Below are positions 62,339 through 64,000 of a stretch of DNA of 64,000 bases, one piece after another. A program made the translations under genes and the position numbers. How positions within the stretch are numbered: position 1 is the stretch's first letter; each line of letters opens with the position of its first letter. The notes under the pieces were generated by a model that did not search any database, was not told the origin of the DNA, and saw nothing but the letters and a program-made list of their open reading frames with translations. The stretch comes from Brevundimonas denitrificans (GTDB lineage: Bacteria > Pseudomonadota > Alphaproteobacteria > Caulobacterales > Caulobacteraceae). Location of the stretch: positions 1-64,000 of the forward strand of contig NZ_BSOY01000001.1 of NCBI RefSeq assembly GCF_030160755.1. The letters run 5' to 3'.

Positions 62339-62812
62339 ATGCAGTCTCCGATCCTCGACCTTCTTCCCCAGCTGGCCGCCGGCGCGGCCCATACTCATGC
62401 GCTGGGCTTCGTCTATGACAGTGTCGACGGCGATCGGGTCCGAATCCGTGCGCCATGGCGCGAGGACCTTGTCGGCGATCCGGACACCGGCGTGCTGTCG
62501 GGCGGTCTGGTCACCACCCTGCTGGATCATGTCGGGGGGCTGGCGGTGTGGATCGCCCTCGGGCGTTTCGAATCGATCGCGACGCTGGATCTGCGCGTCG
62601 ACTATATGCGGGCGGCCGAGGCGCGGCGCGATCTGGTCGCGGAGGCGCGCTGCTACCACCTGACCCGGTCGGTCGCCTTCGTTCGGGCCTGGGCCTTCGA
62701 GGACAGTCCCGACGACCCCGTCGCCGCGGCCCAGAGCGCCTATATGCTGTCCTCGAGCCGCAGCCGTGGGCTCGGCGCCAATCTCAGGATCGCCCCGGAG
62801 GCGGGTCGATGA
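62339..62812 (+). CDS. PaaI-family (hotdog) thioesterase, copy 1
   Basis: A 157-residue hotdog-fold acyl-CoA thioesterase. The catalytic region has DTGVLSGGLVTTLLDHVGGL and the ATLDLRVDYMRAAEARRDL strand. The start ATG follows the hybrid kinase by 60 bases. The second thioesterase gene overlaps its end by four bases, so the two are coupled. Substrates unknown. Confidence 0.9.
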   Translation: MQSPILDLLPQLAAGAAHTHALGFVYDSVDGDRVRIRAPWREDLVGDPDTGVLSGGLVTTLLDHVGGLAVWIALGRFESIATLDLRVDYMRAAEARRDLVAEARCYHLTRSVAFVRAWAFEDSPDDPVAAAQSAYMLSSSRSRGLGANLRIAPEAGR

Positions 62813-63207
62813 GCGACCTGCTGGACCGCCTGCCCTACGCCCGGTTTCTGGGCCTGACGACCGCGAGCGAGGGGCAGATCCTGACCGTCACCATGCCGTT
62901 CGACCAGAAGCTGATCGGCAACCCGATCCTGCCGGCCCTGCACGGCGGATCGACCGCCGCCTTGCTCGAGCTGACGGCCGTCGCCCAGGTCGCCGCGCTG
63001 TATCCCCGGTTGCGGCTGCCGAGACCGATCAATGTCACCGTGGCCTATCTACGCTCGGGTCGCCCGGTCGACGTCCATGCCCGCGCGCGGATCAGCAAGG
63101 CCGGACGCACCGTGGCCCACGTTCTGGCCGAGGCCTGGCAGGACGACGAGGCGCAGCCCATCGCCGCCCTCACCGCGCATTTCCTGATGGCCGAAGACGA
63201 CCTTTAG
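62809..63207 (+). CDS. PaaI-family (hotdog) thioesterase, copy 2
   Basis: A 132-residue hotdog-fold protein, diverged from copy 1. Core: GNPILPALHGGSTAALLELT (helix with active-site region), INVTVAYLRSGRPVDVHARA and GRTVAHVLAEAWQDDE. The ATG overlaps the stop of copy 1 (ATGA). Two coupled thioesterase genes suggest a heteromeric complex or related substrates. Confidence 0.9.
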   Translation: MSDLLDRLPYARFLGLTTASEGQILTVTMPFDQKLIGNPILPALHGGSTAALLELTAVAQVAALYPRLRLPRPINVTVAYLRSGRPVDVHARARISKAGRTVAHVLAEAWQDDEAQPIAALTAHFLMAEDDL

Positions 63208-63238: not shown

Positions 63239-63261
63239 CTCCGTGACGCGAGGTCACGGAG
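63239..63261. repeat. Perfect 9-bp hairpin just upstream of an unknown gene
   Basis: Arms CTCCGTGAC (63239-63247) and GTCACGGAG (63253-63261) flank a loop GCGAG. The right arm abuts the likely ribosome-binding site GAGG (63261-63264) of the gene at 63271. It could end the thioesterase operon, bind a regulator, or hide the ribosome-binding site. Confidence 0.6.
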
Positions 63262-63270
63262 AGGATCAAC

Positions 63271-63660
63271 ATGACCAGACTATCCGTTGGTGAAGCTCTA
63301 GCCGCCCGCCTCTACGCCGCCGAAACCGCGATCGACCAGGCCCTGATCGAAACCGCGACCCTGGCGGCGGCCCTGCCCGCAGCGCGGGCCGACGCGTGGG
63401 TGTCCGCCGTGACGGGCCAGCGAGCATTTGCAGGAACGGCGGCCACCATTAGCGCCCTGGCGGACGCGCGGGCCCACATCGTCCAGACCCACAACACCCT
63501 GACAGCCCTCGCCCGCAAGCTGGGGCTGGAAGCCCTGGCCGTCGGGCCGATGGACAAGCCGGGCGACGGCCCGCCGATCGGCGGTGGAGGCGGCGACGGC
63601 GCCGGGATCGGGCCGGACATGGTGAACAAATCACTACCAGGCGAGGCGGCGATATGTTAA
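63271..63660 (+). CDS. Helical protein of unknown function, tandem paralogue 1
   Basis: A 129-residue protein, mostly helical and Ala-rich: LYAAETAIDQALIETATLAA, WVSAVTGQRAFAGTAATISA and LADARAHIVQTHNTLTALAR, then a Gly-rich tail (GGGGGDGAGIG). It aligns without gaps over about 90 residues to the next gene. No family recognised; no signal peptide. The ATG at 63271 has GAGG six bases upstream. Confidence 0.75.
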   Translation: MTRLSVGEALAARLYAAETAIDQALIETATLAAALPAARADAWVSAVTGQRAFAGTAATISALADARAHIVQTHNTLTALARKLGLEALAVGPMDKPGDGPPIGGGGGDGAGIGPDMVNKSLPGEAAIC

Positions 63661-63693
63661 CGGGTTGTTCACTAGTTTCAGTGGGAGCCATTC

Positions 63694-64000
63694 ATGACCA
63701 GGACGGAAATCATCGCCAGCGTCGCTGACGATCTGTACGCGTCCGAGCAAGCGCTCGACGCCGCCATCGCTCGCGCCACCACCTTGGTGCAGTCGATGAT
63801 CGCCTCGCGCGCCAGCCTGAACGTTTCGGCCGTCGCCGGCGCTGAAGCGCAGGCCAAGGCTCTCGAGGCCATCGCCAGCCTCGGCGTCGCCCGTCAGGCC
63901 ATGGTCGCCTGCCACGAACAACTGGCGAAGGATCACCGCCGTCTGGGCTTCGGTGCCTTCGCCGGTCCGTTCGAGGACAAGCCCGAGAAGCCGCCGACCA
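63694..64000 (+). CDS. Helical protein of unknown function, tandem paralogue 2 (cut by right edge)
   Basis: At least 102 residues, continuing beyond the window. SVADDLYASEQALDAAIARA, LVQSMIASRASLNVSAVAGA and LGVARQAMVACHEQLAKDHR align with paralogue 1, including the shared (V)SAV(T/A)G block. A GGGAG ribosome-binding site precedes the ATG. The two genes lie 33 bases apart, which points to a local duplication. Confidence 0.75.
   Translation, partial: MTRTEIIASVADDLYASEQALDAAIARATTLVQSMIASRASLNVSAVAGAEAQAKALEAIASLGVARQAMVACHEQLAKDHRRLGFGAFAGPFEDKPEKPPT

Follow-up and report, generated by a model that had tools for sequence, protein, structure and literature searches.

The right edge of the window encodes two old tandem paralogues

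The window, by which we mean the whole 64,000-nucleotide stretch analysed here, is the 64 kb at the start of contig 1 (124,991 bases) of a 3.01 Mb Brevundimonas denitrificans genome assembled in 243 contigs. At its right edge lie two small genes, which we denote HEL-A and HEL-B, followed just outside the window by two membrane-protein genes, denoted 5TM. The features of the locus are:

62339..62812, + strand: hotdog thioesterase 1, an upstream syntenic neighbour, given as context and not part of the module
62812..63207, + strand: hotdog thioesterase 2, an upstream syntenic neighbour, likewise context and not part of the module
63239..63261, + strand: 9-bp inverted repeat with a 5-base spacer, overlapping a Shine-Dalgarno-like stretch before HEL-A; it covaries in relatives
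63271..63660, + strand: HEL-A (ORF A), the first of the helical paralogues, 129 aa; its model shows a helical hairpin and a disordered tail rich in Gly and Pro
63694..64029 of the contig (G000:C1), + strand: HEL-B (ORF B), second helical paralogue, 111 aa
64119-64547 and 64590-65018 of the contig, past the window edge: 5TM, two paralogous membrane ORFs

HEL-A and HEL-B lie on one strand, 33 nt apart. Their first 90 residues align without a gap, with 42% identity (E 3.9e-11 in a search of the own genome) and a local BLOSUM62 score of 149, compared with a mean of 34.9 (sd 6.0) and a maximum of 67 in 1000 shuffles. The tandem paralogy proposed by the first-pass annotation is therefore real. The codon-position G+C pattern of both genes resembles that of the two genes downstream, and dN/dS between relatives is 0.11-0.21 for HEL-A (four comparisons) and 0.06-0.39 for HEL-B (three comparisons). 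HEL-A and HEL-B are thus homologous tandem paralogues, old and distantly related, and both are under purifying selection.

The same annotation had suggested reading beyond position 64000, where more copies or a partner gene might follow. HEL-B ends at 64029, 29 nt outside the window, and is followed by the two 5TM genes. The partner was thus found, and there is no third tandem HEL copy beyond the window edge. Downstream of the 5TM pair lies an S24-type repressor, and beyond it an SH3-type protein encoded on the opposite strand and then a tRNA synthetase gene, these two being named from our own reading of the sequence. In 28 of 28 named loci the thioesterase pair lies upstream of HEL-HEL-5TM, and the S24 repressor was detected downstream in 26 of them. 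No HTH ORF was found between the thioesterases and 5TM, either in these 28 named relatives or in the own locus.

HEL is an undescribed family of predicted helical hairpins

No credible match to HEL came from Pfam, NCBIfam, PHROGs, PADLOC or the PDB sequences. The best family E values were about 0.01, far below cut-off and to different families for different members, and the best PDB sequence match (E 0.05) was a designed protein. The profile searches and structure prediction that had been recommended therefore leave the earlier impression of an unrecognised helical family standing: judged by its sequence, HEL is an undescribed alphaproteobacterial protein family. A limited search of titles and the beginnings of abstracts found no paper on the HEL or 5TM families, and both appear as hypothetical proteins in three annotated plasmid records.

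The AlphaFold model of HEL-A (mean pLDDT 77) consists of helices at residues 3-41 and 50-83 and a disordered tail. The model corrects part of the initial description of the blocks shared by the two paralogues: LYAAE (HEL-A residues 14-18), taken as a helix start, is placed in the middle of helix 1, and SAVTG falls in the loop between the helices (42-49). No fold match was significant, the best Foldseek E value being 3.1. Among the Foldseek matches were the ROP/ESAT-6-like hairpins 4lws and 9cfs (E 4.6 and 4.9, not significant). HEL resembles ROP and the ESAT-6-like proteins (EsxA/EsxB) in being modelled as a two-helix hairpin, but it differs from them in its invariant Glu and His, and a sequence relation to them was not found.

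In a set of 146 HEL sequences, from which repeated loci, identical rows and matches shorter than 80 residues had been removed beforehand, Glu18 and His74 are invariant (146/146), and R39, D22 and R67 are kept in 98%, 97% and 95%, respectively. With the hairpin loop near residue 45, E18 should oppose approximately residue 73 and D22 approximately residue 69, so that the side chains of E18, D22, R67 and H74 could form one polar cluster.

A five-helix membrane protein accompanies HEL

The AlphaFold2 model of a 5TM relative has five long helices (mean pLDDT 90). No Pfam family scored above cut-off against 5TM, no PDB sequence matched at E 1, and Foldseek gave a best E value of 0.75, with only generic helical bundles among the structural matches, the VIA-align rows (Z up to 10.9) included. 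G32, E36 and W88 are kept in all 31 aligned 5TM rows (A6), and D70, R86, P89, W91 and H103 in at least 90% of them.

A 5TM gene lies beside HEL in 33/33 loci (L044-L076), in 10/10 regions (L147-L156), a few entries of these two sets repeating one place, and in 5/5 loci (L096-L100). It was detected in 27 of the 29 loci L015-L043; the two others, L027 (2,636 bases) and L040 (2,036 bases), stop within about 350 and 200 bases downstream, respectively.

Three gene layouts

A profile search of the own genome found three HEL places and five 5TM places. The HEL copy outside the window locus is:

C77:1917-2264, minus strand: third HEL copy, in an operon of a LuxR-type HTH ORF, HEL and 5TM

Across all loci we distinguish three layouts: layout I is a LuxR-type HTH ORF with a C-terminal hydrophobic stretch, followed by HEL and 5TM; layout II is HEL(-HEL)-5TM(-5TM) with no regulator, the type of the window locus; and layout III is HTH-5TM with no HEL. 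In a contig scan of 46 confirmed loci, all 28 Brevundimonas-type loci (some from records named only to order, class or 'bacterium') had the order HEL-HEL-5TM, eight of them including a whole or partial second 5TM, and all 18 sphingomonad-type loci (one from a record named only 'bacterium') had the order HTH-HEL-5TM. Two genomes of the genus (L147 and L148) carry two layout-I operons about 2 kb apart, with diverged HELs.

A layout-III locus occurs in the own genome at L095:385-2321 (G000:C83), where an HTH ORF with a nested ORF (see below) and tandem 5TM-like genes stand directly upstream of a metK-like gene, so labelled from our own reading of the sequence, and there is no HEL. We considered that the full set might be split between the window locus and this metK locus; this is not general across the genus, as 14 of the 61 genomes of the genus gave a metK-type 5TM match (E below 1e-15), and among these 14, G049 actually has layout I. 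The window operon with no regulator and layout III with no HEL show that the parts are separable.

One reading of HEL and 5TM, rather unlikely in our estimate and the main rival to the signalling function proposed below, is an envelope complex of the two that itself does physiological work, such as transport or the handling of a lipid or cofactor, the HTH protein of layout I being only a local regulator. Layout II, which has no regulator and yet is a syntenic chromosomal form in 28 of 28 cases, would fit such a complex, and the invariant or nearly invariant Glu, His, Asp and Arg of HEL could bind a ligand or metal. Layout III speaks against it by keeping HTH and 5TM with no HEL, as does the lack of an enzyme or transporter match at the level of sequence or fold.

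The layout-I partner is a LuxR-type regulator with a hydrophobic tail

The HTH partner of layouts I and III belongs to the LuxR/GerE class in the three members tested, with GerE (PF00196) scores of 56.0 (L014), 36.7 (L095) and 36.6 bits (L129) against a cut-off of 23.5. Its likeness to LuxR-type regulators (Pfam GerE) lies in the HTH domain; no autoinducer-binding or receiver domain was listed for the three partners, and the rest of the protein is a linker and a hydrophobic tail. Having no listed autoinducer-binding domain, these three members do not qualify as quorum-sensing LuxR proteins.

A hydrophobic 19-residue stretch (mean hydropathy 2.08 or more) occurs within the last 60 residues of 46 of 47 operon HTH ORFs, the exception being the interrupted HTH ORF of L060; two further ORFs of the original list of 49 do not stand at an operon start and were set aside. 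The layout-I partner would therefore combine a DNA-binding domain and a predicted membrane segment in one polypeptide, which is what defines a transmembrane transcription regulator (TTR; PMC10269533), and the regulator is probably membrane-anchored. It differs from the TTRs of that paper, as far as its main text goes, in being accompanied by HEL and 5TM, and the main text has no word beginning 'luxr'. The window locus, lacking a regulator, does not belong to this class, as its HEL operon encodes no DNA-binding domain. No shared palindrome was seen upstream of 26 HTH genes.

A second reading frame is often nested in the regulator gene

Most layout I and III loci of the Caulobacteraceae contain a conserved second ORF in the +1 frame inside the HTH ORF. 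Two examples are:

L014:2297-2926, - strand: HTH ORF, with the nested ORF at about 2374-2640, - strand
L095:385-1032: HTH ORF, with the nested ORF at 647-907

Among L044-L076, where 24 loci bear an HTH ORF, 23 contain the nested ORF. It is absent from the HTH loci L074, L155, L156, L167 and L169 and from one of the two operons in each of L147 and L148. In two Asticcacaulis plasmids (L075 and L076) the gene table, which is incomplete, lists the nested ORF alone in one and the HTH ORF alone in the other; the L075 operon lies near lasso-peptide genes.

In eight loci the variable sites fit the HTH frame over the HTH itself and the +1 frame over the middle of the gene, with a tendency back to the HTH frame at the hydrophobic tail. 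Across the nested core of 21 loci (the interrupted L060 was excluded) the HTH frame has no stop, where synonymous shuffles average between 0 and 2.0 per locus. Single loci are unremarkable, and the summed ln P of -22 over the 21 loci is not a true probability because the loci are related and were chosen for a long HTH ORF. Both frames at the regulator linker look coding. Each of 12 sphingomonad HTH ORFs inspected encodes a continuous HTH-linker-tail protein, and the nested-ORF profile matched no ORF in those twelve loci; these continuous ORFs with no nested frame indicate that HTH and tail are one protein.

HEL and 5TM are widespread in two families

With HEL-A as query, matches were found in 59 of 61 genus genomes and at least one copy in 50 of 50 good genomes; of the two genomes with no match one is 70% complete and one is 6% contaminated. 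By a hand count of matches less than 600 bp apart, a tandem HEL pair occurs in 30 of the 61 genomes. A second copy is thus found in relatives, and copy number varies between genomes, the point that the first-pass annotation had wanted checked. Seven match rows in six genomes (G012 twice, G029, G039, G040, G049 and G059) had stops inside the aligned stretch, and their ORFs were used only where open. In L022 and L119, possibly one species, the HEL-A ORF is only 82 aa long, with HEL-B and a 5TM still open, so that HEL-A seems dispensable there.

At the family level, query C found a HEL relative in at least 109 of 149 genomes and 18 of 22 genera, a lower bound since the query is a single sequence. 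HEL relatives also occur in several named sphingomonad genera. In class-wide scans, HEL profile A2 matched at least 8 of 387 genomes and 5TM profile A3 at least 6 of 289; among the candidates scored, the matches of both were confined to families f1 and f12. With at most 12 or 13 candidates scored per genome, such scans may overlook copies.

On three plasmids a 5TM relative adjoins HEL and an HTH ORF, in layout I. HEL-A and 5TM had no match in phage records, the HEL-A profile none in viral contigs, and the HEL-A query none in plasmids. On these results we rejected the idea that the window pair came from a phage or another mobile element. In PADLOC, HEL, 5TM and the nested ORF were unmatched, the only matches being two HTH ORFs, through their HTH. 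Phage records, viral contigs and PADLOC thus give no sign that these are phage or defence genes. A small soluble protein encoded beside a small membrane protein, with variable HEL copy number and layout I on three plasmids, is what one might expect of a toxin-immunity or defence-like pair in which 5TM would be harmful and HEL its soluble partner. We regard this as improbable, given the empty PADLOC, phage and viral searches and the long-lived, syntenic state of layout II.

HEL-A and HEL-B are not a recent duplication

The two genes adjoin on the same strand and are 42% identical, which could suggest a recent local tandem duplication of one gene with no special meaning. In a 60-row tree HEL-A forms one group (100/90), whose neighbour is an HTH-linked copy from a different species of the genus (98/91), and HEL-B falls among regulator-less single copies, other genera included (99/97). 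The 60-row tree leaves out, among others, 15 long-branch rows present in the tree of 146 rows. A clade of HEL-A and HEL-B alone is rejected (lnL 142 lower, p-AU 1e-48), in part because single copies nest inside HEL-B; a clade that also includes the regulator-less singles of the genus, a grouping framed after the tree was seen, has an lnL 31 lower (p-AU 0.021). At the same syntenic site, four loci of the genus (L149-L152) and two loci from two other genera (L069 and L072) have HEL-B but no HEL-A; in the short loci of the single copies L051, L052, L054, L064 and L071 none of these neighbours was seen. The trees and these HEL-B-only loci make a recent duplication very improbable.

The simplest reading of these placements would be that HEL-B-5TM is the old resident, which HEL-A joined on the upstream side in some members of the genus. 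The test remains compatible with a single origin of HEL-A and every regulator-less copy (p-AU 0.31; 0.19 when L049, L057 and L042 are left out), so that descent of HEL-A from a regulator-linked copy, beside which the free tree places it, is only one possibility, and the alignment of 112 columns makes the deep forks weak.

A covarying inverted repeat precedes HEL-A

The inverted repeat in the HEL-A leader can form an 8-pair helix, for which 81.7% of cells are kept across 29 relatives (28 distinct rows), compared with 31-47% when the helix is slid. Both sides changed in 24 cells, compared with 10.2 in shuffles, and the paired cells, the cells changed on both sides and the covariation score each beat 500 of 500 shuffles. 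The signal is lower when counted by pairs: six pairs changed on both sides against 4.1 in shuffles, which 42 of 500 shuffles matched, and the number of further pair types was matched by 14 of 500. Pairing is poor in some relatives (for example L106, L107, L117 and L118). This pattern leans towards an mRNA hairpin rather than a DNA palindrome.

Rfam has no match at the leader. Elsewhere on three loci the Rfam matches above cut-off were tRNAs and one match to the Caulobacter sRNA CC0196 (L014:194-252; 36 bits against a cut-off of 35), which lies on the same contig as the third HEL copy.

A possible membrane-linked signalling module

We propose, as a tentative reading to which we give not quite even weight, that HEL as a soluble adaptor and 5TM as the membrane part form a membrane-linked signalling module, ancestrally tied to the tail-anchored LuxR-type regulator. 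5TM would be a membrane sensor or anchor, and HEL a soluble helical-hairpin adaptor docking on it, probably via Glu18, Asp22, Arg67 and His74. In layout I the HEL-5TM pair would control the tail-anchored regulator; in the window layout, where a cis regulator is missing, HEL-A and HEL-B may either have a different target or work through a regulator whose gene lies elsewhere. The divergence of the two HELs suggests that each could be a separate adaptor, or that they pair as a heterodimer, with one or two 5TM partners in common.

The conserved HEL-5TM gene order across loci, the occurrence of both proteins in the same two families of the class, the GerE domain and hydrophobic tail of the HTH partner, the five modelled helices of 5TM, the invariant residues of the HEL hairpin and the fixed synteny of layout II all support such a module. 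It is weakened by the lack of a significant fold match for either HEL or 5TM, by the separable parts, by the 82-aa HEL-A of L022 and L119, and by the absence of a shared palindrome at the HTH genes.

A bolder form of this proposal, which we consider doubtful as a whole, has three parts working as an undescribed membrane-signalling device: a tail-anchored LuxR-type regulator, a hairpin adaptor whose Glu-His site is invariant, and a membrane sensor of five helices. A fourth conserved gene would often be added, read in another frame within the regulator linker. The Glu-His site might be a ligand or metal site completed by dimerisation, with HEL-A and HEL-B forming a heterodimer in the window. If this is true, the regulator and the fourth protein would be locked to one stretch of DNA, and the conserved gene within the regulator linker offers a testable case of long-lived same-strand overprinting. 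HEL relatives are widespread in the family and yet named in no library; if their proposed function is true, they would add a membrane-tethered control system with soluble adaptors.
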